A stretch of DNA of 37,732 bases. Origin: an uncultured Prevotellaceae bacterium. GTDB lineage: Bacteria; Bacteroidota; Bacteroidia; Bacteroidales; Muribaculaceae. The translations under genes were made by a program, and so were the position numbers. Position 1 is the first letter of the stretch. Every line of letters starts with the position of its first letter. Below, piece after piece: positions 13,922-32,869 of this stretch. The notes beneath the pieces were generated by a model. It worked only from the letters and a program-made list of their open reading frames with translations. It was not told where the DNA came from and made no database searches. The DNA is taken from positions 1-37,732 of the forward strand of contig ONGE01000025.1 of assembly GCA_900317325.1 (NCBI GenBank), given 5' to 3'.

Positions 13922-13929
13922 TATCTTTG
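13922..13929 (+). promoter_or_regulatory. Promoter of the first cobalamin operon
   Basis: TATCTTTG matches TAnnTTTG exactly. A TTTG at 13901-13904 lies 17 bases upstream, slightly shorter than the usual 19-20. The start site near 13936 falls just before the riboswitch. Confidence 0.65.
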
Positions 13930-13939
13930 CAGCGAGATT

Positions 13940-14132
13940 TGGTGCCTGAGGGTATTTCCTCGGGTGAAAAGGGAACCGGGTGGGAATCCCGGACAGACGG
14001 CGCTGCTGTGTGCTCCCGTTACTGATACCCCGCATCAGGCCACTGCGCGATTTGCCCGACAGCAAGGGATCGCGTGGGAAGGGCTGGTTGCAAACATTTG
14101 GGGTAGGGGCGAGTCAGAAGACCTGCCAAGTC
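13940..14132 (+). ncRNA. Cobalamin (B12) riboswitch 1
   Basis: The leader carries the conserved cobalamin aptamer blocks in order. AAAAGGGAACCGGGTG then GAATCCCGGACAG appear at about 13967-13996, followed by GCGCTGCTGTG. The B12 box GAGTCAGAAGACCTGCC is at 14111-14127. The next gene starts 28 bases after the B12 box, with no intrinsic terminator between. Control is therefore probably translational, hiding the ribosome site when adenosylcobalamin or a related form is bound. Aptamer ends are approximate. The operon behind it encodes B12-type outer-membrane uptake proteins, which agrees with the call. Confidence 0.93.
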
Positions 14133-14154
14133 GCGAACATAGAAACCCGTGACA

Positions 14155-16239
14155 ATGCGTAAGACGTTAATGACAGCATTATTGGCTATAGTGTCTTTCC
14201 TGTGCGCCCATGCCCAGGAAGGCGTGCTTGCGCATCAAGCCGACTCGGTCATGGCGGCCGTGGGACACGGGCGCTTGGACTCGATGCAGTATATCCAGAA
14301 CGTCATCATCTATGGCCGTCGCCCCTACGAGGACGTGATACCGGCTCAGGAATTGACGGGCAAGCAGCTCGAGGGCCTCAACAGCCACTCGGTGGCCGAT
14401 GCCGTGCGCTATTTTGCCGGTGTACAGCTCAAGGACTATGGCGGCGTGGGAGGCCTCAAGACGGTGGACATCCGATCGATGGGCACCAACCACATGGGCG
14501 TTTTCTATGACGGCATCCAAATCGGCAATGCGCAGAACGGCCAAGTGGATTTGGGAAAATTCTCACTCGACAACATTGAGGCGATTTCACTCTATAACGG
14601 TCAGCGCAGCAACATCTTCCAGAGCGCCAAGGACTACGGCTCGGCCGGAACCATCTACCTGCGCACACGTCGCCCCAAGTTCAAGGACGGCAAGCGTGAC
14701 AACCTCAATGTGTCATTCAAGACGGGCTCTTTCGGCCTCGTGAATCCCAGCGTGCGCTGGGAGCACAAGTTGAGCCGTGCTGTGAGTCTGTCGTTCAACA
14801 GCGAGTTCACCTATGCCACCGGTAAGTATCGCTTCCGCTACATGCGTCACTACAGCGACGGCTCGGTGGCGTGGGACACCACGGCCGTGCGCCAGAACGG
14901 CGAGGTGCGTTCCTATCGTGTCGAGGGAGCCGTTTTTGGCGTGATGTCAAGCGGGAAGTGGCACGCCAAGGCTTACTGGTACGACAGCAGCAAGGGCATC
15001 CCCGGTGCCATCGTCAACAACGTGTGGAAACATGCCCAGAAGCAGTGGGACACCAACTTTTTCCTCCAGGGGGCTTACCAGCGCAAGTTTACTGACCGCT
15101 ACGAGATGATGTTCAATGCCAAGTATTCGCGTGACCGTCTCCACTACCTCAACCCCGACACCACGTTGATGTACATCGACAACAAGTTCTGGCAGGACGA
15201 GATTTACCTCTCTACCGCCAACAAATACACCATCCTCACCGACTGGGATGTGAACCTCTCGCTGGACTACCAGTGGAACAGCTTGGATGCCACCTTGACG
15301 GGCTTCGGCTATCCTATCCGCCACACGGTGCTCACAGCCCTGGCAACGGCCTATACCTGGCACGGATTCAAGGCCCAGGGCAGCCTGCTCTACACGATGG
15401 TCAACGACCGCTCGTCGGCACGCTTCAATGGCGAGGTGGTGGGCAAGACGAGCAAATACATGAACAAGGTCACGCCTGCCGTCTTCCTCAGTTGGCAGCC
15501 TTGGCATGAGCGCGAGTTCAACCTGCGCGCTTTCTACAAGCGCATCTTCCGCATGCCCACGTTCAACGACCTCTACTACACCGACATGGGCAACATCACG
15601 CTCGATCCCGAGTATGCCACCCAGTACAACGTGGGCTTCCTGTACCGTCTGCTCACCGATCATGGTCTGCTTGCCGGCGTCAAACTCAGTGCCGATGCCT
15701 ACTATAACTACATCACCGACAAAATCATCGCCGTTCCCAAGGGCACTGGCCAGTACCGCTGGATGATGATGAACGTGGGAATCGTGAAAATCCGAGGCAT
15801 TGACGTGAGTGCCCGCACGACTTTGCGGCTGCCCGCCGACGTCATTCTGGACATCAACTTGAGTTATACCTACCAGAAGGCCCAGGACTACACCAATCCC
15901 GCCGACAATGGCGACGGTGGCACTTATAAGGGCCAACTGGCCTATATCCCCTGGCACAGCGGCTCGGTAGTCGGTCATCTGGGCTGGCGCGACTTGGATG
16001 TGAACTACAGCTTCATCTACGTGGGCGAGCGCTATCACACCAGCGCCAACACCCGCGAGAACCACGAGCAGCCCTGGTACACCCACGACTTGTCGGCAGG
16101 CTATCTGCTCCACTTGGGCAAGACGACGTTGAAAATCTCGGGCGAGGTCAACAACCTCTTCAACCAGTACTACGACGTCATCCTTAACTATCCCATGCCC
16201 GGTCGTAATTACAAACTCATCCTCAAATTCGACATCTGA
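14155..16239 (+). CDS. btuB: TonB-dependent outer-membrane receptor, BtuB-like (vitamin B12 uptake)
   Basis: This is a 694-residue TonB-dependent receptor that should import cobalamin or a related corrinoid across the outer membrane using TonB energy. A signal peptide (residues 1-22, ending CAHAQ) precedes a TonB-box-like NVIIYGRRP. The plug domain (about 45-165) contains VADAVRYFAGVQLKDYGGVGGLKTVDIRSMG and a YDGIQIGNAQNGQVDLGKF segment. The rest is a beta barrel ending NQYYDVILNYPMPGRNYKLILKFDI. It lacks the N-terminal carboxypeptidase-like extension of SusC proteins, so it is a small BtuB-type receptor. Cobalamin specificity is inferred from the riboswitch immediately upstream and the BtuG-like partner. 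ATG 14155 is chosen over GTG 14149. Its stop codon overlaps the next start codon in TGATG, implying translational coupling. Confidence 0.9.
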   Translation: MRKTLMTALLAIVSFLCAHAQEGVLAHQADSVMAAVGHGRLDSMQYIQNVIIYGRRPYEDVIPAQELTGKQLEGLNSHSVADAVRYFAGVQLKDYGGVGGLKTVDIRSMGTNHMGVFYDGIQIGNAQNGQVDLGKFSLDNIEAISLYNGQRSNIFQSAKDYGSAGTIYLRTRRPKFKDGKRDNLNVSFKTGSFGLVNPSVRWEHKLSRAVSLSFNSEFTYATGKYRFRYMRHYSDGSVAWDTTAVRQNGEVRSYRVEGAVFGVMSSGKWHAKAYWYDSSKGIPGAIVNNVWKHAQKQWDTNFFLQGAYQRKFTDRYEMMFNAKYSRDRLHYLNPDTTLMYIDNKFWQDEIYLSTANKYTILTDWDVNLSLDYQWNSLDATLTGFGYPIRHTVLTALATAYTWHGFKAQGSLLYTMVNDRSSARFNGEVVGKTSKYMNKVTPAVFLSWQPWHEREFNLRAFYKRIFRMPTFNDLYYTDMGNITLDPEYATQYNVGFLYRLLTDHGLLAGVKLSADAYYNYITDKIIAVPKGTGQYRWMMMNVGIVKIRGIDVSARTTLRLPADVILDINLSYTYQKAQDYTNPADNGDGGTYKGQLAYIPWHSGSVVGHLGWRDLDVNYSFIYVGERYHTSANTRENHEQPWYTHDLSAGYLLHLGKTTLKISGEVNNLFNQYYDVILNYPMPGRNYKLILKFDI

Positions 16240-17405
16240 TGAATAAAATAAGGAAAATAGGGACAGTTCTCGTGATGGCATTTTTCCTCACCGTGGTCTT
16301 GACGGGATGCCGTGAGGAGGTGACGATCTTCCTGCCTGAGCACGTCTCGGTGGCGCAACCCGAGTTTACCGACATCGAGGGCTTCTACCTGCTGTGTGAG
16401 GGCAATATGGGCTGGAACAAGGCCACGCTGGACTATTATGATTACGCCTATGGCGAATACGTCCGCAACATCTTTTCCTATGCCAATCCCACGGTGCCCA
16501 AGGAGATGGGCGACGTGGGCAACGACATCGGCATCTATGGCAGCAACCTGTACTGCGTCATCAACTGCTCCAACAAGGTGGACGTGCTCGACAAGTACAC
16601 CTGCAAGAAGAAGTATCAGGTCAACATCCCCAACTGCCGCTTCATCCGCTTCTACGGCGGCTATGCCTACGTGACCAGCTATGCCGGCCCGGTGCAGATC
16701 AATCCCAACTACGAGCAGCGCGGTTATGTCGCCAAGATCGATACCGTGACCATGCAGGTCGTGGACACCTGTCTAGTGGGTTTCCAGCCCGATGAGCTGG
16801 AGATTGTCGAGGGCAAGATTTATGTCGCCAACTCTGGCGGCTATATGGTGCCCAACTACGAGAACACGGTGTCGGTCATCGATGTGGCGACTTTCAAGGA
16901 GGAGCGCCGCTTTCCCGTGGCCATCAACCTGTCGTGGGTCAAGGGCGACCGTCACGGTATGCTCTGGATTGCCTCACGCGGAGACTATTACACCCGCCCC
17001 AGTAAGATATATGCCTATGACACGCGCAAGCAGCAACTCGTGGACAGCATCGACTGCCCCGTGAGCAACATGTGGCTCGACGGCGATTCCCTCTATGTGG
17101 TGAGCACCCAGTGGAGCTATGTGTCGATGAGCAACACGTTTTCCTATGCCGTCATCAACACCCAGTCGCGGCAGAAGGTGAGTGACAATTTCATCACCGA
17201 CGGCACCGACAAGGATATCGTTATCCCCTATGCCGTCGCAGTCAATCCCATCACCAAGGACATCTATGTCACCGATGCCAAGGACTACGTGTCACCCGGC
17301 AGCCTGTATTGTTTCGACCGCTACGGTGTCAAGAAGTGGGATGTGCGCACTGGCGACATCCCTGCTCATTTTGCCTTCCTGGGCATCAACATCAACGAGA
17401 GATAG
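16239..17405 (+). CDS. btuG: Surface beta-propeller lipoprotein, BtuG-like B12-capture protein
   Basis: The 388-residue product has a lipoprotein signal with lipobox LTGC (lipidated Cys24). The acidic REE just after the Cys resembles Bacteroidetes surface-export signals. The mature part is a YncE/DUF5074-type seven-bladed propeller. Blades can be seen as repeated patterns such as GFYLLCEGNMGWNKATLDYYDY, YGSNLYCVINCSNKVDVLD, EIVEGKIYVANSG and SVIDVATFKEERRF. In Bacteroides thetaiotaomicron the BtuG propellers sit on BtuB receptors and bind B12 extremely tightly. This gene is in the same position, overlaps the receptor gene by one base and shares its riboswitch. I infer a BtuG role; ligand-contacting residues were not checked. 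Confidence 0.8.
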   Translation: MNKIRKIGTVLVMAFFLTVVLTGCREEVTIFLPEHVSVAQPEFTDIEGFYLLCEGNMGWNKATLDYYDYAYGEYVRNIFSYANPTVPKEMGDVGNDIGIYGSNLYCVINCSNKVDVLDKYTCKKKYQVNIPNCRFIRFYGGYAYVTSYAGPVQINPNYEQRGYVAKIDTVTMQVVDTCLVGFQPDELEIVEGKIYVANSGGYMVPNYENTVSVIDVATFKEERRFPVAINLSWVKGDRHGMLWIASRGDYYTRPSKIYAYDTRKQQLVDSIDCPVSNMWLDGDSLYVVSTQWSYVSMSNTFSYAVINTQSRQKVSDNFITDGTDKDIVIPYAVAVNPITKDIYVTDAKDYVSPGSLYCFDRYGVKKWDVRTGDIPAHFAFLGININER

Positions 17406-17425: not shown

Positions 17426-18637
17426 ATGAATCGAACAAGAAAAATTGCAACGATCGTGCTGCTCCTGATGACGGCACTGACCATGTGGGCCAATCATCCG
17501 TGGCTCACGCGTGTTTACCAGTATCGGCCGGCTCCGGGACAATTCGTCAACACCTTGCCTGTGGCGAGGGTGGGCGAGCCTGTCGATAGTGTGCTGGCGC
17601 GATGCCAGGCCAGCATCTGCGGCCGCATCGACACCGTTTCCAGCACTTTCCACGGGCAGATCATCACCCGCATCGATACCGTGTGGGCCGAGAGCATGAT
17701 CACGCTCGGCGGCTACGGCGGCTATGTCGTTGTGGGATTTGACCACCCCGTGGTCAATATGCATACCTGGGACTTTGAAATCATGGGCAACGCTTTCTAC
17801 AGCGACCAGACGTCGGCAGGTGGCAGCTGCGAGCCCGGTATCGTCATGGTGGGTGTTGATGCCGACGGCGACGGTGTGCCCAGCGACGGCGACAAGTGGT
17901 ATGAACTTGCGGGAAGCGAATACAACCATCCCACGACCCAACACGATTATGCCATTACCTACTACCGTCCCGACGAGGGCAAGCCGCGCACGCCCAGCAC
18001 GACCGACCCGAGCCTGATCGACACTACCTACATCCTCTGGACCAGTAACGACGTCAACCCTGACAGCATCAGCGGCTACATGAGCCGCAACAGTTTCCAC
18101 ATGCAACCCTATTGGCCCTTGTGGCTACAGAACGAGGAAACCCTGGAGTTCACTGGTGCCAAGTTGCGCTGCAATGCCGTAGATATCGGCGGAAATGACG
18201 GATATGCCTATTATGTGCAATACTGCCTGCCGTGGGGTTATGTCGATAACCTGCCCAACCATCCTGGACGTCAGCCAGGCGTCGAGGGGTATAATCCCGG
18301 TTTCAAGATCGACTGGGCTGTTGACGAGCAGGGACGCCACGTCAACCTCACCCACATCGACTTTGTCAAGGTCTATAATGCCGTGAACCAGTATTGCGGT
18401 TGGATAGGCGAGACCTCGACCGAGGTGGCCGGCGGCATCGACTTTCATCCCGATGCTCCGATGCCTGTCGTCAACCCCGCCGACGTGAACATTGATGGCG
18501 AGGTGAACATCAGCGACGTGAATGCGGTGATCGACCTCATCCTGTCGGGCGTGACGGGTGCGACAGGCGACGTGAACCGCGACGGCGAGGTCAACATCAG
18601 TGACGTGAATGCATTGATTGACTGGATACTGCAATAA
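17426..18637 (+). CDS. Secreted PAPGQFVN-type surface protein with C-terminal dockerin pair, third gene of B12 operon 1
   Basis: ATG 17426 gives 403 residues and lies 20 bases after the BtuG-like gene. A Sec signal peptide (about 1-22, ending MWA) has no lipobox Cys. The main domain (about 23-345) is a family I recognise from Bacteroidetes as an unnamed 'cell surface protein'. Its markers are the RPAPGQFVN start, LGGYGGYVVVGFDHPV, GGSCEPGIVMVGVDADGDGVPSDGDKWYELAGSEY, HMQPYWPLW, and a tail with IDFVKVYNAVNQYCGWIGETSTEVAG. Two dockerin-type calcium loops end the protein (DVNIDGEVNISDVNAVIDLIL and DVNRDGEVNISDVNALIDWIL). It probably helps surface capture of corrinoids or their carriers, judged only from operon position. 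A homologous domain recurs in the fusion protein at 28986-31553. Confidence 0.8.
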   Translation: MNRTRKIATIVLLLMTALTMWANHPWLTRVYQYRPAPGQFVNTLPVARVGEPVDSVLARCQASICGRIDTVSSTFHGQIITRIDTVWAESMITLGGYGGYVVVGFDHPVVNMHTWDFEIMGNAFYSDQTSAGGSCEPGIVMVGVDADGDGVPSDGDKWYELAGSEYNHPTTQHDYAITYYRPDEGKPRTPSTTDPSLIDTTYILWTSNDVNPDSISGYMSRNSFHMQPYWPLWLQNEETLEFTGAKLRCNAVDIGGNDGYAYYVQYCLPWGYVDNLPNHPGRQPGVEGYNPGFKIDWAVDEQGRHVNLTHIDFVKVYNAVNQYCGWIGETSTEVAGGIDFHPDAPMPVVNPADVNIDGEVNISDVNAVIDLILSGVTGATGDVNRDGEVNISDVNALIDWILQ

Positions 18638-18723: not shown

Positions 18724-20808
18724 TTACATGTTCAGAATCATGTCGATGATGGCGTTGACATCGGCGATATTGACCTCGCCGTCAGCGTTCACGTCGGCCT
18801 CGGGAACCGATGTGTCGGTCAGAATCATGTCGATGATGGCATTGACATCGGCGATGTTCACCTCGCCGTCGCCGTTCACGTCACCCGTCAACGGGGCAGC
18901 GGGAGTGAGGTCCTCGATGGTCATGCTGTTCACCAGGAACATGCCCATGTCGTACTGCGAGCAGCAGCACAGCGCGATAAAGCTGGCAAATTTCTCGTTG
19001 TCGGTGCCATAACCGTCGTCCTCGACCTTGAACGTGATGCTGTAGTCGCGGAACTCGCCAGGGTGCTTCACCGAGAAGGCCTCGTTGCCAAGGGGTGTAG
19101 CGCCCACCAGGTCATAGCCGCTGAAGGTGTAGAAGCGGAAGCGTTCCTCGCGATATCCGGCAATGTCATCGTTGCTCACGTTGGCCGTGATCTTGTACTC
19201 GTGGCCTTCCTGGAATTCGATGGGCGGCGAGATGATGAAGTCGTTGGCCCAGAACACCTCGTTCTTCTGGTAGATGAAGAAGCACTTGTCACCTCCCTGG
19301 CCGAACATGTTCATGAAGTCCTTGTACCACACGAAGGGGTAGCCGTCCTCGTTAGCGTCGAGCACGGTCCAGAACTGGCCACTTTCCTCCCACGAGTTGA
19401 ACGGGGCGACATAGGGGCACTTGACGGGCGTGCCGTTCACCAGATCGTTGGTGGTGGCACTCAGGCCGGCACCGTCAGCGTTCTTGACATTGATCTGATA
19501 GGAATAGCGGGTCAGTTCATCGAGGAGTTTGGTGTCATCGAAGGCCGTGGTGGTGAGGTCTTTGGCAATGACCTTGTTGTCGTTCAGGCGCACGATTTCA
19601 TAGGTCAGCGAACCCTGGTCCAGGTAACCGCCGTGAGCGCCGGTCGTGGGTGCAGTCCATGACAGGTTGTTGACCAGCAGGGTCATGCGGTCGAGCGTGG
19701 CGCGAGCGTCGGTGACGGCAGCGGGCACGTCATGGCCAATCCAAGCCTCCACGGGTTGTTCCAGACTGGCTCCGGCAGTATTGACGGCCGTGATGGTGAA
19801 TTCATACATGCCGGCCTCTTCTACCGTGACTGCCTGTCTCATGGGTTCGCCGGGCATGCAGTCCTCAAGGACGGTTTTCTCGCCGGTGACCGTGTTGACG
19901 ATTTCGATGTTGATTGTGCCCTCAAGCGGTGAGCCGCTGTAGTCGTTCACGGGGTTGCACCACGTCAGCTGGGCTTCCAGTGCGCCCTCCTCATCGGCTA
20001 TGATGGTCGCATCGGTCACGCGTTGAGGTGCACTGCCGCTGCTCGGCTCGTAGGGGATGCCCAGGGCGATGACGTGAGAACCGTCGCCGATGATGCCCAC
20101 CATTGTGGCCTCGCCCGTGGTGGTGTCGATGGTGTACAGCGAACTTTTCTCATTGCTGCCCCATAAAGCCAGGTACAAGGTCCCGCTTTTACGGTCAAAT
20201 TCCATGCTCTGGAAGTTCCACCACGATGCCGGTGTCACTCCTGTCGAGCCGATGACCTCGGTGTCTCCGGTGCTCTTGTTCACCTTGAGCAGGTAGCCGT
20301 TGTTGGCCAGCGCATACATCTGGCCGCGGGCATCGATAGCGATGGCCTTGCAGTAGTAGGGCAGATTGCTGGTGAAGGTCATCGCGCCGTTCTCGAGGTT
20401 CACGGTGCCGATGGCCGACACGCCGTCGATGTCCTCGCTGTTGGCAATGAAATACATTGTGCTGGTCGAGTAGTCGTAGGAGAGGTCACCCGGACAGGTC
20501 GCCTCGCCCAGTTTCTTGATGGTTTCGCTCTCACCGGTCGTGGTGTTCATCCTGTAGAACCACATGTTGAAGTCGTCGTCGATGCCCATCATGTACAGGG
20601 TGCTGCCCACAAGCGCACCCGAGCGGGGCTCGGCCTTGGTGTAACCACCCAAGCGGGTCACTGCCGACGGCTCATCAGTAGTGAAACTGATCATCGTCTG
20701 CGTGTTCGACGGCAACATGGTATAGCCGAAGGCTGTCTGTTGCGCTGATGCGCCCAGGGCGGTGGACGTCAAGGCCACAGCCAGCGCAAGTTGTAAGAGT
20801 TTTCTCAT
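18724..20808 (-). CDS. Large secreted multidomain protein with propeller-like, Fn3, anchor-J-like and dockerin domains
   Basis: The 694-residue product starts with a Sec signal peptide (MRKLLQLALAVALTSTALGASAQ). Residues 23-265 form short WD/Kelch-like repeats (SGALVGSTLYMMGIDDD, YSTSTMYFIANSED, ARGQMYALANNGYLLKVNKSTGD, RKSGTLYLALWGS) suggesting a beta-propeller. Two fibronectin type III-like domains follow (about 266-360 and 362-460). Next is a cleaved-adhesin or choice-of-anchor J-like jelly roll (about 465-630), marked by WTVLDANEDGYPFVWYKD and FIISPPIEFQEGHEYKI. Two near-identical dockerin loops (NIADVNAIIDMIL twice) end the protein. It is probably secreted and attached to a surface partner through the dockerin; substrate unknown. 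It has its own promoter at 20862-20892 and is convergent with the B12 operon, so it is not part of it. Confidence 0.8.
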   Translation of the reverse strand: MRKLLQLALAVALTSTALGASAQQTAFGYTMLPSNTQTMISFTTDEPSAVTRLGGYTKAEPRSGALVGSTLYMMGIDDDFNMWFYRMNTTTGESETIKKLGEATCPGDLSYDYSTSTMYFIANSEDIDGVSAIGTVNLENGAMTFTSNLPYYCKAIAIDARGQMYALANNGYLLKVNKSTGDTEVIGSTGVTPASWWNFQSMEFDRKSGTLYLALWGSNEKSSLYTIDTTTGEATMVGIIGDGSHVIALGIPYEPSSGSAPQRVTDATIIADEEGALEAQLTWCNPVNDYSGSPLEGTINIEIVNTVTGEKTVLEDCMPGEPMRQAVTVEEAGMYEFTITAVNTAGASLEQPVEAWIGHDVPAAVTDARATLDRMTLLVNNLSWTAPTTGAHGGYLDQGSLTYEIVRLNDNKVIAKDLTTTAFDDTKLLDELTRYSYQINVKNADGAGLSATTNDLVNGTPVKCPYVAPFNSWEESGQFWTVLDANEDGYPFVWYKDFMNMFGQGGDKCFFIYQKNEVFWANDFIISPPIEFQEGHEYKITANVSNDDIAGYREERFRFYTFSGYDLVGATPLGNEAFSVKHPGEFRDYSITFKVEDDGYGTDNEKFASFIALCCCSQYDMGMFLVNSMTIEDLTPAAPLTGDVNGDGEVNIADVNAIIDMILTDTSVPEADVNADGEVNIADVNAIIDMILNM

Positions 20809-22246: not shown

Positions 22247-23311
22247 ATGAAGAAATTCTTTACTTTAATTGCTGTGGCCGTTCTGGCATTTGCTGCTCAG
22301 GCCAACGAGTTGACCGTTGGTGAAGGTCTGTCTTATTCCAACGTAAACCCCATCTGTGGCCTTTATGCTGACACCGAGGGTTGCTTGACCCAGACCGTTT
22401 ATCCTGCAACCATGCTCACCGACATGGCTGGCGGCAACATCACTGCTGTTACGTTCTACACCCTGAACTGGTATTACGAGACCTATGGCGGCTTCACCAG
22501 TGATGATGAGACTGATTTCATCAACTTTGAAGATGCCAAGTTCCAGCTGGCTCTCAAGGAGGTTGACGAGAACGGTTTCACCGAGGTTGTTGCTTTTGTT
22601 GATGCTACCGCTGTTGCTACCTGCGTTCCCGAGTACGGTGACACCGAGGTTACATTCGTTTTGGACCAGCCCTTCGCTTTCACTGGCAAGAGCCTGGTCG
22701 TTGAGGTAACCTGCATCGAGGCCGGTAGTTGGGGTCAGACCTACTTCTTCGGTTCTGCCGCAGACGACAATTGCAGCTACTTCTACATTCCCGGTGGTGG
22801 TGAGAATGGCGAAGATGCTATTAACATCACCAAGCACATGCCCATGGCTACCTTCAACTATGAGGAGGGTACGACCGTTGTTGTAGGCGCTCCCGTCTTC
22901 AATGGCTACACCATCGACGGTGTTACCGGTTACGGTGTTGATATCACCCCGACCACCGAGGGCAGCGAGATCATGTACCGCGTCCTGGTTTGGGATGCTG
23001 TTGCCGAGGAGTGGGTTCTGAGGACTGACTGGACCCTGTACGGTGACACCGAGGGTGAGATCTGGTTCGAGAACAACGGTGAGAAGGTTCGCATCGAGGC
23101 TTATGCATTCATCGGTCAGAACAGGAGCGAGGACGTAGCTTATGAGTTCACCGTAGCTACCGCTCTCGACGAGCTCATGGGCAGCAAGACCGTTGCTGGC
23201 GTTCGCTACTTCAACATGGCTGGCCAGGAGATGCAGCAGGCCGAGGGTCTGACCATCGTGGTTACCACCTACACCGACGGCACCACCAACGCTGTTAAGG
23301 TTGTGAAGTAA
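22247..23311 (+). CDS. Secreted single-module protein with Bacteroidetes sorting-type C-terminal domain
   Basis: The 354-residue product has a signal peptide (1-19, MKKFFTLIAVAVLAFAAQA). One copy of the beta-rich module spans about 20-205 (CLTQTVYPATMLTDMAGGNITAVTFYTLN, TEVTFVLDQPFAFTGKSLVVEV). The last 141 residues contain a sandwich-like segment and a tail, TVAGVRYFNMAGQEMQQAEGLTIVVTTYTDGTTNAVKVVK. The tail resembles type IX-style sorting domains of Bacteroidales (VRYYN-AG-E ... VTTYTDG pattern), and no dockerin is present. This C-terminal block is almost the same as that of the DUF4465 protein at 31598-32869. Function unknown; a secreted surface-attached protein is the safest call. Confidence 0.78.
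   Translation: MKKFFTLIAVAVLAFAAQANELTVGEGLSYSNVNPICGLYADTEGCLTQTVYPATMLTDMAGGNITAVTFYTLNWYYETYGGFTSDDETDFINFEDAKFQLALKEVDENGFTEVVAFVDATAVATCVPEYGDTEVTFVLDQPFAFTGKSLVVEVTCIEAGSWGQTYFFGSAADDNCSYFYIPGGGENGEDAINITKHMPMATFNYEEGTTVVVGAPVFNGYTIDGVTGYGVDITPTTEGSEIMYRVLVWDAVAEEWVLRTDWTLYGDTEGEIWFENNGEKVRIEAYAFIGQNRSEDVAYEFTVATALDELMGSKTVAGVRYFNMAGQEMQQAEGLTIVVTTYTDGTTNAVKVVK
22886..23311 (+). repeat. Dispersed 426-bp duplication, copy 1 (coding)
   Basis: Bases 22886-23311 and 32444-32869 have the same length with no gap and encode about 129 of 141 identical residues by hand count. The similarity starts abruptly at the sequence for GAPVF. Only the 3' ends of the two genes are shared; their N-terminal domains differ. 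Confidence 0.9.
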
Positions 23312-28577: not shown

Positions 28578-28607
28578 TTGTGGTCTCAAATAATTGTAGT
28601 ATCTTTG
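28578..28607 (+). promoter_or_regulatory. Promoter of the second cobalamin unit
   Basis: TTG at 28578-28580 at the end of a T-rich run, 19-base spacer, TATCTTTG at 28600-28607. An exact consensus promoter directly ahead of the riboswitch. Confidence 0.85.
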
Positions 28608-28621
28608 CAGTAACAAATTGA

Positions 28622-28830
28622 ACGTGTTGAGGTTCCCTGCCTGTTTTTGGTAAGGGATGAAAAGGGAATCAGGTGTAAATCCTGGACAGTACCCGCTGCT
28701 GTAACTCCCTGACGATACATCGCGCGGCATCGTGCCACTGGTTGCAAACTCATGGTCTGCATCATCACCGGGAAGGCGCCGACGACGATGGGGGAGAAGT
28801 CAGAAGACCTGCCTCCGCACTGCCAAGCAT
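28622..28830 (+). ncRNA. Cobalamin (B12) riboswitch 2
   Basis: The aptamer starts with TTGAGGTTCCC and continues with AAAAGGGAATCAGGTG (about 28660-28675), AAATCCTGGACAGTACCCGCTGCTGTAA, and the B12 box AAGTCAGAAGACCTGCC at about 28797-28813. It is an independent copy, not a recent duplicate, because its variable stems differ from riboswitch 1. About 155 bases separate it from the next gene, much longer than at riboswitch 1, with no intrinsic terminator. A possible 18-codon reading frame (28911-28967) lies in that gap. Confidence 0.94.
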
Positions 28831-28985: not shown

Positions 28986-31553
28986 ATGAGAAAACTTTTA
29001 GCTCTTGCATCTGTGTTTTTGATGGCTGCCACGATGACGCTGGCCGCCAATTCGCCCTATATTGCCCGTGTGTATGACTACCTGCCTGCTCCGGGCCAGT
29101 TTGTGAATGTGTTCCCGGCTTACAAGCCCGGTTACACCCAGGACAGCATCAATGCACAGCTCGAGAACGTGCTGTGTGGTGGCGTGAATGGCTCCGTCAG
29201 CTTGGGCAGCTATGGTGGCTACATCATTTTCGGTTTTGACCATCCCGTGATCAACAAGCACGGCTATGACGTGAAAATCTACGGCAATGCCATGCAGAGT
29301 AACGCCGTGCCCGATCAGGCTGGCGGCAGCTGTGAGCCTGGCATTATCATGGTGGGCGTTGACATGGACGGCGATGGCGTGCCCAGTGCTGCCGACCGTT
29401 GGTATGAGATTAAGGGTAGCGATTATGACCGCTGTCAGCATGGTTTTGAGGTGACTTACTACAAGCCCGATGAGAACAAGGTCAAGGTGCCTCATGACAG
29501 ATGGCGCTTTATCACCGACACCGAGTATGTCTATTGGACAAGTAACGATGCCGAGGCTCCCGAAGGCTATGTGTGGCGCAACTCGTTCCACACCCAGCCC
29601 TACTGGCCCTTGTGGCGAGAAGATACGGTGCTCACGTTCCGAGGCGCGAAATTGCCCAACTCCTCCATTGACATGAGTGGCGGCAATGGCAATAATTGGT
29701 TTCAGCCTTTCTTGGGTGAAGGCTATGTGGACAACCTGCCCAACAATCTGGAGCCAGGTTTCATGATTGACTGGGCGGTGGATGAGGACGGCAATCCCGC
29801 TGAACTTGATCACATCGACTTCATCAAGGTGTATTGCGGTCAGCTGGACTACTGCGGCTGGCTGGGTGAGGTTTCGACCGAGGTGTGTGGTGCCGAGGAT
29901 CTGCATCCCGACGCCGAGCCCGATGAGCCTGGCCCCGGACCTGACGATTTTACGTTCACCAACGGCATCATCTTCGTCAACGAGGACCGCTATGGTCCCA
30001 ATCAGGGTTCCATCAACTATTACAACTACGACTACGATGAGATGGAGTATAACGTCTTTGCGATGGTGAATCCAGGCGTGAAGTTGGGCGTGACCACTCA
30101 ATTCGGTCAGTTGTTCGGCAACCGCCTGTTCCTTGTCAGCAAGCAGGCCAACAGTAGCGAGGCCTCGGGCAGCACCGTGGGTTCGCGCCTGGCGGTGCTC
30201 GACGCTGCCACACTCAAGCAGCAGGGCAGTGTTTTGCGATTCCATGAGTCCCCCGACAGTGTGTATGACGGTCGTGCCTATTGCGCCGTGGACAACAATA
30301 AGGGTTACATTTCCACCAGCGGCGGCATCTTCGTCTTTGACGTGCCCTCGATGAGCGTTCAGGGAATGATCGACGGCACGCAGTCCAGTGCGAAGGGCGA
30401 TTACAACAGCCTGTACCGTGGCCAGTGCGGCGACATGGTGCGATTCGGCCAGTATGTGTTCGCTGTGCAGCAGGGCAGGGGTCTCCATGTGATTGACCCG
30501 ACGACCGATGCCCTCGTGACTACCTTGTCGTTCCCCAATATCGTGACCGTGTTCGTCACGGCTGGCGGCAACCTGTATGTTGCCAATAACTCGCGCGAGA
30601 TCTATGACTACAGCGGTGGCCCCTACGAGGCTAACTTCACTTGCATCGACCCTGTGACCTTCAGGGTGAAGGAGGTGCATGAACTCGGTGGCTCCTATGG
30701 CGCTGTGAGCTCGTGGGGAGCTTGGCGTGCGCGCATGGTCTGTGTGGATCCCCATGCCGAGCGGGTTTATTATAGCTATGATGAGTACCAGAACTATATC
30801 AGCTGCTATGACTTCGCGACACGCACCTTCACCGATGTCCTCATCACGCTGCCCGATGGCGTGGAAATCAACTGGGACGGCACGGTAGAGCGCCAGGGCC
30901 TTTATGCTTCGGCCATCAGCTTTGATCCCCACACGGGCGACATGGTGGTGCAGACTACCGAGGCGGCTCCCTTGTCTTATCAGAACTTCAACCACAACTG
31001 GGTGCTGTTCTATGATGCCAACACGCTGGAACTCAAGCGACAGATACGATTGCAGGACGCTTATTGGTTCCCGGCAATGGCAGTATATCCCGACATTGAG
31101 GCTCCCACGGTGAACATCGAGGATCAGAACATCGGCGCTGGTCGCGAACAGGTTATCAGCCTGTTGGATGCCGTGAGCGATGCCGACAATATGGCGGCGC
31201 TGGCTGTGACCACTGCCGTGAGCGGCGACGAGAATGTTGTCCGTGCCACAGTGAGCGGTCTGGAACTGCATCTGGCAGCCTTAACTCCTGGCAGGACGAC
31301 GGTCAACGTCACTACCGACAGCAATGGCCGATTGGCAAGCACTTCATTCACTGTGACGGTTACCAAGGTCTCGATTCCCGGTGACGTGAACATGGATGGC
31401 GTCGTGAACATCTCGGATGTGACCCGCTTGATCACAGTCATCATGGGCTCGGTTTTGTGTGACTATGACCCGGCTGCAGCCGACTTCAATGGTGACCACA
31501 CCATCAATATCACCGATGCAGTGATGTTGATTAATTGGATTATGGACAATTGA
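28986..31553 (+). CDS. Fusion of PAPGQFVN-type surface domain, BtuG-like propeller, Ig-like domain and dockerin, behind a B12 riboswitch
   Basis: The 855-residue product has a Sec signal peptide (1-20) without a lipobox. Residues about 21-310 match the third protein of B12 operon 1: LPAPGQFVN, LGSYGGYIIFGFDHPV, GGSCEPGIIMVGVDMDGDGVPSAADRWYEI, HTQPYWPLW and DYCGWLGEVSTEV. A proline/glycine-rich linker (about 311-321) leads to a BtuG/DUF5074-like beta-propeller (about 322-702; SINYYNYDYDEMEYNVFAM, LFGNRLFLVSKQ, RLAVLDAATLK, GNLYVANNS). An Ig/PKD-like domain (about 703-795) and a dockerin-like pair (796-855) end it. The two proteins are separate, with the propeller lipid-anchored, in operon 1; here they are one soluble, dockerin-tagged chain. 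I infer surface or released capture of corrinoids. The DUF4465 gene follows after 44 bases. Confidence 0.82.
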   Translation: MRKLLALASVFLMAATMTLAANSPYIARVYDYLPAPGQFVNVFPAYKPGYTQDSINAQLENVLCGGVNGSVSLGSYGGYIIFGFDHPVINKHGYDVKIYGNAMQSNAVPDQAGGSCEPGIIMVGVDMDGDGVPSAADRWYEIKGSDYDRCQHGFEVTYYKPDENKVKVPHDRWRFITDTEYVYWTSNDAEAPEGYVWRNSFHTQPYWPLWREDTVLTFRGAKLPNSSIDMSGGNGNNWFQPFLGEGYVDNLPNNLEPGFMIDWAVDEDGNPAELDHIDFIKVYCGQLDYCGWLGEVSTEVCGAEDLHPDAEPDEPGPGPDDFTFTNGIIFVNEDRYGPNQGSINYYNYDYDEMEYNVFAMVNPGVKLGVTTQFGQLFGNRLFLVSKQANSSEASGSTVGSRLAVLDAATLKQQGSVLRFHESPDSVYDGRAYCAVDNNKGYISTSGGIFVFDVPSMSVQGMIDGTQSSAKGDYNSLYRGQCGDMVRFGQYVFAVQQGRGLHVIDPTTDALVTTLSFPNIVTVFVTAGGNLYVANNSREIYDYSGGPYEANFTCIDPVTFRVKEVHELGGSYGAVSSWGAWRARMVCVDPHAERVYYSYDEYQNYISCYDFATRTFTDVLITLPDGVEINWDGTVERQGLYASAISFDPHTGDMVVQTTEAAPLSYQNFNHNWVLFYDANTLELKRQIRLQDAYWFPAMAVYPDIEAPTVNIEDQNIGAGREQVISLLDAVSDADNMAALAVTTAVSGDENVVRATVSGLELHLAALTPGRTTVNVTTDSNGRLASTSFTVTVTKVSIPGDVNMDGVVNISDVTRLITVIMGSVLCDYDPAAADFNGDHTINITDAVMLINWIMDN

Positions 31554-31597: not shown

Positions 31598-32869
31598 ATG
31601 AAGAAATTATTTACTTTAGCAGCATGTGCCCTGATGGCTTCGGCCGCTTGGGCTGGCGTGGTTACGCTTGACATGAACAATCCGTTGAATCCTGCCACTA
31701 TCGAGTATGGTGACAACGGCGTTTGGACCCAGTGCTACAACGATGTGGATTACACATGGTTGGAATTTGGCAACGACAAGGGTACCTTCATGCTCTCGCA
31801 CCTTATCGACGGTGAGGGTGCTTCGTGGGGCGGTTATTATTGGGACGGTTTCACCCCCGCTATCGGTGGAGACCGCACCGACTACGGCCAGGCTGGCAGC
31901 AGCGCTGGCTGGACCACCATGTTCGGTGGCTGTATGGCTGGCGGCGGCTGCGTGATCAATGCCGACGGTAGCGTGTCTGCCGATCCCGCTGTGCCCTATT
32001 TCGTAGCTTACTACAGCAGCTGGGCTTCTGAAGGACCGAGTAATCAGGTGATGTTTGTTGACAATGACGGCAACTCGACATTTGAGCCTGTTGGCGTATA
32101 TATCTGCAACCACCCCTGGCCCTATTATGGCTGTGAGCATGGTGACGGCTTCGGCTCCGGCTTTGCCGAGGGTGACTACTTCGAGCTGATTGCCCATGGC
32201 GTTGCTGCCGATGGAAGCGAGAAAACCGTCAGCATCAATCTGGTTGAGTTTACCGATGGTCAACTCATCGCCCTTAACGATTGGACCTTCTTTGACCTGT
32301 CTGAACTGGGCGAGGTTGAGTCGGTTTACTTCACCATGAATTCTACCGATGTAGGCCCTTACGGAATGAACACCGCTGCCTACTTCTGCATGGACAAGTT
32401 CCAGGTGAAGGTCGCTGATACCCCTGTTGATCCTGTTACTGTTGGCGCTCCCGTCTTCCAGGGTTACACCATCGACGGCATCACCGGTTACGGTGTGGGC
32501 ATCACCCCGACGACCGAGGGCAGCGAGATCATGTACCGCGTCCTGATCTGGGATCCCGTTGCCGAGGAGTGGGTTCTGAGGACCGACTGGACCCTGTATG
32601 AGGGCACCGAGGGCGAGATCTGGTTCGAGAACAACGGTGAGAAGGTTCGCATCGAGGCCTATGCTTTCATCGGTCAGAACGTGAGCATGGATGTGGCTTA
32701 TGAGTTCACTGTAGCTACCGCTCTCGATGAGCTGATGGGCAGCAAGACCGTTGCCGGCGTACGCTACTTCAACATGGCTGGCCAGGAGATGCAGCAGGCC
32801 GAGGGTCTGACCATCATGGTCACCACCTACACCGACGGCACCACCAGCGCCGTTAAGGTAATCAAGTGA
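31598..32869 (+). CDS. DUF4465-type secreted protein with Bacteroidetes sorting-type C-terminus, B12-regulated
   Basis: The 423-residue product has a signal peptide (1-19, MKKLFTLAACALMASAAWA). Residues about 20-275 fit the DUF4465 pattern: WGGYYWDGFTPAIGGDRTDYG, VGVYICNHPWPYYGCEHGDGFGSGFAEGDYFELIAHG, and DLSELGEVESVYFTMNSTDVGPYGMNTAAYFCMDKFQV. DUF4465 proteins are common beside B12 receptor genes in Bacteroidetes. A vitamin-binding BtuH class has been described there, but I cannot verify from sequence alone that this is that class. The last 141 residues nearly equal those of the protein at 22247-23311 and end in a sorting-type tail. It is co-transcribed with the fusion gene (44-base gap, no terminator) and thus under riboswitch 2. 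A strong terminator follows. Confidence 0.8.
   Translation: MKKLFTLAACALMASAAWAGVVTLDMNNPLNPATIEYGDNGVWTQCYNDVDYTWLEFGNDKGTFMLSHLIDGEGASWGGYYWDGFTPAIGGDRTDYGQAGSSAGWTTMFGGCMAGGGCVINADGSVSADPAVPYFVAYYSSWASEGPSNQVMFVDNDGNSTFEPVGVYICNHPWPYYGCEHGDGFGSGFAEGDYFELIAHGVAADGSEKTVSINLVEFTDGQLIALNDWTFFDLSELGEVESVYFTMNSTDVGPYGMNTAAYFCMDKFQVKVADTPVDPVTVGAPVFQGYTIDGITGYGVGITPTTEGSEIMYRVLIWDPVAEEWVLRTDWTLYEGTEGEIWFENNGEKVRIEAYAFIGQNVSMDVAYEFTVATALDELMGSKTVAGVRYFNMAGQEMQQAEGLTIMVTTYTDGTTSAVKVIK
32444..32869 (+). repeat. Dispersed 426-bp duplication, copy 2 (coding)
   Basis: Partner of 22886-23311; the same length and no gap. The differences I count in the encoded protein are about 12, mostly conservative changes such as V to I. 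Confidence 0.9.

Follow-up and report, generated by a model that had tools for sequence, protein, structure and literature searches.

What does a cobalamin riboswitch control when no receptor gene follows it? This question is raised by a gene at positions 28986..31553 of contig ONGE01000025.1, the whole of which (37,732 bases; contig C13) is the window analysed here and belongs to the 3.47 Mb draft genome of an uncultured Prevotellaceae bacterium (G000, 44 contigs). The gene encodes a single chain in which a BtuH-type domain is fused to a beta-propeller, an immunoglobulin (Ig)-like domain and a dockerin, and it is followed by a BtuJ-type gene. The analysis points to a receptor-less H-K-J unit for cobamide capture, which is probably secreted without lipidation and would act as an accessory module feeding the BtuB receptor of another cobalamin operon of the window (operon 1). 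The unit is an unusual variant of the known B12-scavenging kit, and the fusion is real, recurrent and conserved in a bacterium related to ruminant-gut Bacteroidales. Comparisons were made with 35 related loci, found by searching the genome contigs of a collection with one genome per species. Their record titles name uncultured or metagenome Muribaculaceae, Prevotellaceae, Porphyromonadaceae or Bacteroidales, and the host animal, wherever a title gives it, is a ruminant. Published background was taken from excerpts of PMC8941943, PMC12751083, PMC10404256, PMC13398666, PMC5831590, PMC10266427, PMC6247017 and PMC4189754, and statements attributed to published work are limited to these excerpts.

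A two-gene unit behind a cobalamin riboswitch

The riboswitch aptamer (28613..28830, forward strand, as are all features given below unless noted otherwise) matches RF00174 with 102.5 bits (E 9.3e-25; gathering score 31.5), and the start codon of the fusion gene lies 155 bases past its end. Just before the aptamer, a promoter-like site was read in the sequence at 28578..28607 (TTG - 19 nt - TATCTTTG), which we take to be of the Bacteroidota type; a sigma-70 scan listed no site at this position. All 36 units (the 35 loci and the window) have the motif TAnnTTTG no more than about 60 nt before the riboswitch (chance 3% per 72-nt piece), and in 31 of them it is preceded by TTG at a distance of 18–20 nt (chance 0.9%). 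One cobalamin riboswitch stands directly upstream of the H gene in every one of the 35 related loci (9 + 9 + 10 + 7).

The fusion gene is an open frame with an ATG start that encodes 855 amino acids. A signal peptide, recognised by eye (residues 1–21, 28986..29048), precedes the BtuH-type domain (residues 22–310, 29049..29915), a Pro/Gly-rich linker (residues 311–323, 29916..29954) and a beta-propeller of the DUF5074 family (residues 324–702, 29955..31091), for which PF16819 gives E 2e-74 over residues 326–702. The Ig-like domain (residues 703–795, 31092..31370) was assigned from the structural model, where beta-strands occupy residues 714–793 with a predicted local distance difference test (pLDDT) score mostly around 90; no Pfam family scored above its cut-off in this region. 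The chain ends in a type I dockerin (residues 798–853, 31377..31544), which PF00404 matches at residues 798–851 (E 4.8e-11, 43.1 bits against a cut-off of 22.9; 48.5 bits in the genome-wide search). The signal peptide lacks a lipobox cysteine and no Cys follows it, and the lipobox pattern was found within residues 1–35 in none of the 35 orthologues. No receptor gene was found in the unit, and no BtuB match at E ≤ 1e-4 was obtained around any of the 35 loci within flanks of up to 8 kb. An earlier sequence-only reading of this DNA had described a one-chain fusion behind its own cobalamin riboswitch, extended by an Ig-like domain and a dockerin and lacking both a lipobox and a neighbouring receptor gene, and all of these points stand.

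That reading had overlooked the second gene of the unit, which starts about 45 bases after the stop codon of the fusion and encodes a DUF4465 protein of 423 amino acids (31598..32869; PF14717, E 2.4e-33). Its solved relatives include BtuJ1 (9fct, E 2.4e-9) and BtuJ2 (9i2l), and eight distantly related DUF4465 proteins have been shown to bind B12 (PMC13398666). The HI-loop tyrosine of BtuJ1, Tyr245, aligns with Y262 and is a Tyr in 34 of 35 sequences. In Bacteroides thetaiotaomicron, BtuJ1 and BtuJ2 are predicted lipoproteins, whereas the protein of the window has, by eye, no lipobox and a tail like that of type IX secretion system (T9SS) substrates. The gene follows the fusion, or the split pair described below, in all 34 loci whose contig continues. 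In one locus a second DUF4465 gene, 52% identical, comes straight after the first (L038:8797-9624). Elsewhere in the window, the product of 22247-23311, which has no known domain, is almost identical to the DUF4465 protein over some 140 C-terminal residues, the T9SS-like tail included.

The BtuH domain and its predicted B12 contacts

The N-terminal third of the fusion contains a BtuH domain of about 270 residues. Residues 22–307 match the C-terminal domain of B. thetaiotaomicron BtuG1/BtuGH (8blw_B, E 1e-53) and BtuH2 (7biz_A, E 4e-34; 4.2e-34), and residues 1–310 are 46% identical (159 of 348 columns) to the product of the third gene of operon 1, as had been proposed when this half was first read as its homologue. 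In BtuH2 (BT_1956), B12 is contacted by Q333, N399, F401, H476, Y510, W511, W577 and L578 (PMC8941943). The corresponding residues of the window protein are Q38, N101, M103, H202, N237, W238, W292 and L293, and six of these eight are identical to the contacts (Q38, N101, H202, W238, W292 and L293). The same residues were counted over alignment A1, which has 33 H-bearing rows and includes 9 of the 12 split H genes: Q is present in 33 rows, N in 33, F in 7, H in 30, Y in 0, the Trp of W511 in 32, that of W577 in 33 and the Leu of L578 in 32. Judged from these alignments, the BtuH pocket is mostly retained. The resemblance to BtuH2 and BtuH1 (BT_1488) is that of the domain; BtuH2 differs in having PKD domains and a lipoprotein signal, whereas the protein of the window has a fused propeller, no lipobox and a terminal dockerin. 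A further difference concerns the setting, as more than 80% of BtuH genes lie in an operon with btuB (PMC8941943).

A propeller of the BtuK type by sequence

The propeller had first been taken for a BtuG-like domain homologous to the second gene of operon 1. This likeness is real but remote (26% identity over 107 columns, E 3e-7 in a single comparison), and the closest solved relative by sequence profile is instead BtuK1 (BT_1486; PDB 9S6C). The profile was built from alignment A3, which, like A4, holds 27 of the 34 full propellers plus that of the window and to which 3 outgroup propellers were added. Searched against PDB sequences, this profile of 31 propellers retrieved BtuK1 (9s6c) with E 4.2e-22 over positions 4–379 of 380, and the best BtuG structure with E 2.2e-7 over positions 4–243; the remaining BtuG structures scored worse, over at most about 240 positions. 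BtuK1 leads by about 15 orders of magnitude, and the profile does not place the propeller nearest to BtuG1-3. For the product of the second operon 1 gene the pattern is reversed, with 8ptd/8ptf (titled BtuG1/BtuG2) at E 9.8e-36 and 9s6c absent up to E 0.1. Moreover, in genus g6 of the same family (L055–L057) a single operon comprises BtuB, BtuG, BtuH and then a relative of the fusion propeller. The BtuG of these operons is 64–65% identical to that of operon 1, and the separate propeller is 29–33% identical to that of the fusion. As the profile favours BtuK1 and these sister-genus operons hold BtuG and the propeller relative as separate genes, the view of the fusion propeller as the counterpart of operon 1 BtuG is not supported; by sequence, it is of the BtuK type rather than a BtuG proper. 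In B. thetaiotaomicron, BtuK1 is a separate predicted lipoprotein; here its relative forms the middle of a fusion without a lipobox, and in the split alleles the propeller genes, judged by eye, open with an ordinary signal peptide.

Structural models gave a less clear picture. With the full-length model, the fold search placed an archaeal surface-layer propeller (1l0q) first, BtuK1 next and then BtuG chains. With a model of the propeller only (mean pLDDT 71), the first 18 PDB matches were all BtuG or BtuK1 chains; the lowest Foldseek E-values belonged to BtuG chains (2.0e-15 against 1.6e-13 for BtuK1), but on the TM-score normalised by the model BtuK1 ranked highest (0.69, with 0.68 at most otherwise). 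On these models, fold comparison alone does not decide between BtuK and BtuG. The Foldseek E-values, together with the known BtuG-BtuH fusion BtuGH of B. thetaiotaomicron, are what would favour a propeller acting as a BtuG lid on BtuB, in which case the chain would be a lid of the BtuGH kind, but soluble, on the receptor of operon 1. We consider this quite unlikely, given the profile margin and the model-normalised TM-score, the g6 operons that hold both propeller types, and the gene content of the window, where the unit has no BtuB, no lipobox marks the protein as a lid lipoprotein and a BtuG is already part of operon 1. The identity of the propeller as BtuG was thus rejected on the sequence profile and the g6 operons, the fold leaving it open.

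A BtuK-type propeller need not bind corrinoids. In B. thetaiotaomicron, BtuGH, BtuH1/2, BtuK1 and BtuJ1/2 bind cobalamin, and BtuK2 and BtuL do not (PMC12751083). By analogy with the latter two, the propeller could be a non-binding module, B12 being captured by the H domain and the DUF4465 protein only. This is also an improbable explanation, if somewhat less so than the lid: it is BtuK1 that the profile finds, BtuK2 (4r5o, BT1487) being absent from the 16 matches up to E 1 and a weaker fold match, and the propeller is highly conserved within the genus (mean column identity 85% over 28 sequences).

The identity of the propeller also bears on the claim that the fusion argues for physical cooperation between the BtuG and BtuH proteins of operon 1. 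As the fusion joins BtuH with a BtuK-type protein, it says little about contact between those two; the link is better illustrated by the published BtuGH (BT_1490, formerly BtuG1). BtuGH resembles the fusion in joining a propeller and a BtuH domain, with two B12 sites per chain (candidate sites in the window protein), and in that a cobalamin riboswitch precedes its btuB1; its two halves bind cobalamin separately (PMC12751083). It differs from the fusion in the opposite order of its domains, with the propeller N-terminal and BtuH C-terminal, in having a BtuG propeller, in being a predicted lipoprotein and in lying beside its own BtuB. The excerpted description of BtuGH mentions no dockerin, and the fusion of the window ends in one.

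Fused and split alleles in one genus

Could the fusion be an artefact of a draft genome? The sequence-only reading had suggested looking for it in other genomes, and it was found there: the two halves lie in one frame in 23 of the 35 related loci (counting as fused L029, whose contig ends within the propeller and which was omitted from alignments A1–A4 and from the trees). In the other 12 loci they are separate abutting genes, one encoding H and a dockerin and the next a signal peptide, propeller and dockerin, with an overlap of at most 11 bases or a gap of at most 15. Although these separate genes would speak for an error, an assembly error has a negligible probability, since the one-frame form recurs in 23 loci of a collection with one genome per species and the linker is related across the 23 aligned fused sequences (22 loci and the window), being similar in most and least so in L013 and L019. 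The assembly error was therefore rejected.

NrdG is encoded upstream of the unit in 28 of the 35 loci. Other genes are found upstream in L014, L032, L035, L036 and L039, and L036 and L039 also have no topA downstream; the genomic setting of the unit is therefore not always the same. In eight loci (L012, L013, L015, L024, L025, L026, L031 and L041), a secreted protein of about 770 amino acids is encoded between nrdG and the riboswitch. Its start is NPI(S/T)-QQA-like, its end resembles a dockerin, and it may be a C10-type peptidase.

A survey of 297 genomes of the family, which overlaps with the 35 loci and is not independent of them (G217:C9 is the contig of L032, G242:C23 that of L043 and G222:C21 that of L010, among others), gave some match in 247 genomes, H domains being common. 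Matches better than 1e-250 were restricted to 18 of the 40 genomes of the same genus and to 0 of the 257 others, where the best reached about 1e-99. Of these 18 genomes, 12 have the fused and 6 the split form, and each of them has a further H protein resembling that of operon 1, with 53–60% identity over the aligned part. Among 393 genomes of the order (207 genera), only the genome of the window itself passed E 1e-105, a threshold that a more divergent fusion would escape.

Neither the fused nor the split alleles form a single clade in trees of the H domain, of the propeller or of both. Forcing the fused/split division on H cost 19 log units and was not rejected (approximately unbiased (AU) test, p 0.18); forcing it on the propeller cost 123 log units and was rejected (AU p 0.0007). 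A single clean fusion event is thereby discarded on the propeller data, although not on the H data. The simplest reading is that fusion took place once or a few times and that fused and split alleles later exchanged propeller segments, and recombination is likely to have taken part in their history. The split state may be the older one, as the sister genera suggest. Intermediate alleles were also considered, because frames of 952 and 943 amino acids (G217 and G242) and of 945–946 amino acids (G116, G005 and G072) hinted at longer fusions. The DNA of these stretches reads as separate genes, so no intermediate was found.

A proposed capture unit away from the receptor

Where would the captured cobamides go? 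Operon 1 begins with its own cobalamin riboswitch (13923..14144; RF00174, 90.1 bits), followed by a BtuB-type TonB receptor, the likely partner of the unit (14149..16239; Plug domain; TIGR01779, the TonB-B12 model, E 2.3e-32, although the 112 bits fall short of the 599.7 required by its cut-off), a BtuG-type protein (16239..17405) and a BtuH-type protein of 403 amino acids with a dockerin, homologous to residues 1–310 of the fusion (17426..18637). The BtuG-type protein carries the lipobox LTGC, in agreement with its earlier description as lipid-anchored. A search of the genome with operon 1 BtuB returned only this protein itself at E ≤ 0.001, which favours the earlier suggestion that the operon 1 receptor is the partner. 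With H, K and J types assembled without a receptor and one clear BtuB in the genome, the unit was taken as an accessory capture module feeding operon 1.

In the mechanism that we propose and consider the most likely, cobamide shortage would lead the riboswitch at 28613-28830 to permit expression of the two genes, presumably as one transcript. From the first would come a single chain, secreted without a lipid anchor, in which the BtuH domain and the BtuK-type propeller each provide a candidate corrinoid site and a dockerin forms the C-terminus. This chain corresponds to an adjacent btuH-btuK pair in which the Pro/Gly linker stands in place of the inner dockerin, the stop codon and the signal peptide. 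The second gene would supply a BtuJ-type (DUF4465) putative corrinoid binder. Both products would retain cobamides extracellularly and deliver them to the complex of BtuB and BtuG encoded by operon 1, which lies about 13 kb from the unit on this contig.

Several observations weigh against this mechanism. Two of the eight BtuH2 contacts are changed, F401 to Met103 and Y510 to Asn237 (a position with Tyr in 0 of 33 rows), and BtuJ1 Tyr146 is matched in the alignment by W174, a position that is Trp in all 35 sequences. BtuK2 is similar to BtuK1 and yet does not bind cobalamin, so that likeness is no proof of binding. The full-length model of the fusion is weak (mean pLDDT 66, with about half of the H domain below 50). 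Two other TonB receptors behind a cobalamin riboswitch on contig C36 are possible partners instead of operon 1 BtuB; a 24%-identical stretch of a C36 receptor was absent from the results of the genome search with BtuB. Finally, the genome encodes enzymes of corrin synthesis, so scavenging may matter less.

At the locus on contig C36 (L046, C36:70000-89000), the cobalamin riboswitch leads the two TonB receptors, a chelatase of the CbiK type whose start is lipobox-like, and genes with tetrapyrrole-methylase, CbiC, CbiG, CbiD and CbiJ domains. Thus, the scavenger genome also seems to make corrinoids.

The arrangement of the H-K-J unit departs from what has been characterised. The cobamide-capture proteins described in B. 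thetaiotaomicron are lipoproteins, and most BtuH genes share an operon with btuB. In the unit, capture is uncoupled from both the lipid anchor and the receptor gene, and two capture modules are joined in one chain in reverse order. The coexistence of fused and split alleles in one genus provides natural material on the pairing of BtuH with BtuK and on capture off the cell. No paper joining dockerin, cobalamin and riboswitch was found in a literature search whose scope omits preprints and most subscription papers, and in which a single paper names BtuGH. In B. thetaiotaomicron, the proteins with the highest relative enrichment in vesicles are BtuK2, BtuH1, BtuJ1 and BtuL (PMC12751083).

Dockerins and T9SS-like tails

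The unit also draws attention to a dockerin-rich genus without a clear cohesin. At least 152 dockerin matches were obtained in the genome (a count of matches and not of proteins, from scoring 150 of 288 candidates), together with a single match to the cohesin family PF00963, below its cut-off (22.2 against 24.1 bits). A cohesin-like segment is present in 30 of 41 genomes of the genus, with Pfam cohesin at E ≤ 0.01 in 0 of the 7 proteins scanned. Dockerins without cohesin have been seen before in Bacteroidales: single-cell genomes of Alistipes, Bacteroides and Bacteroidales contain dockerins, and cohesin appeared only in a Christensenellales one (PMC10266427). Another source states that Bacteroidetes genomes lack both dockerins and cohesins (PMC5831590).

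One protein of the genome, P0016 (732 amino acids; contig C8, L047:9432-11627), combines BspA repeats and Big_2 with an internal dockerin and a cohesin-like module that narrowly misses the Pfam cut-off; by eye, it also has a possible second cohesin-like module and a T9SS-like tail. Relatives in the genus are 99, 82 and about 50% identical. P0016 is a candidate scaffold for the dockerins of this genome, and together with the cohesin-like segments in 30 of 41 genomes it keeps docking possible.

The ends of the proteins suggest another role. In the sister genera, the C-termini of the H and propeller proteins are, by eye, T9SS-like tails, whereas those of the genus itself are dockerins. Of the 34 DUF4465 orthologues, 29 have a T9SS-like tail (by eye), those of L037 and L041 have a dockerin and that of L027 has another ending, while those of L032 and L035 are cut. 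Taken together, these observations suggest that the two endings can replace each other. The fusion, in turn, lacks the inner dockerin of the split form and retains only one at the end of the chain. With two PorU-type sortases in the genome and no cohesin above cut-off, a bolder version of the proposal can be drawn, in which the H-K-J unit would be an off-cell cobamide sponge, somewhat like a siderophore, secreted, non-lipidated, receptor-less and later harvested by BtuB, and in which the dockerin would have taken over the task of the T9SS tail in surface delivery or retention, instead of or besides docking to a cohesin. We regard this combination as speculative and on balance doubtful. The model TIGR04183, which finds seven T9SS tails in the genome, does not recognise the tails concerned, no match to it being obtained with NCBIfam up to E 0.1 in the fusion or the operon 1 H protein and no NCBIfam match of any kind in the DUF4465 protein, and P0016 exists, with its internal dockerin and cohesin-like module. 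Excerpts of PMC5831590, PMC10266427, PMC6247017 and PMC4189754, among other sources, contain nothing on dockerins as sorting tags. A pattern count over the window, L010–L044 and L045–L047 placed the dockerin at the very end in 51 of 51 dockerin proteins, none of them with a T9SS-like tail, and found 29 others with a tail and no dockerin. The dockerin was nevertheless not accepted as a proven sorting signal, as P0016, with an internal dockerin and a tail, was missed by this count.

Two further observations concern other genes of the genome. Convergent to operon 1, on the reverse strand (18727-20808), lies a gene for a dockerin protein with a weak DUF4394 match (29.1 bits against a cut-off of 29.6). 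A fourth cobalamin riboswitch of the genome (L045, C2:1-5111) precedes a BtuR/CobO adenosyltransferase and a transporter of the citrate/sulphate-symporter type.

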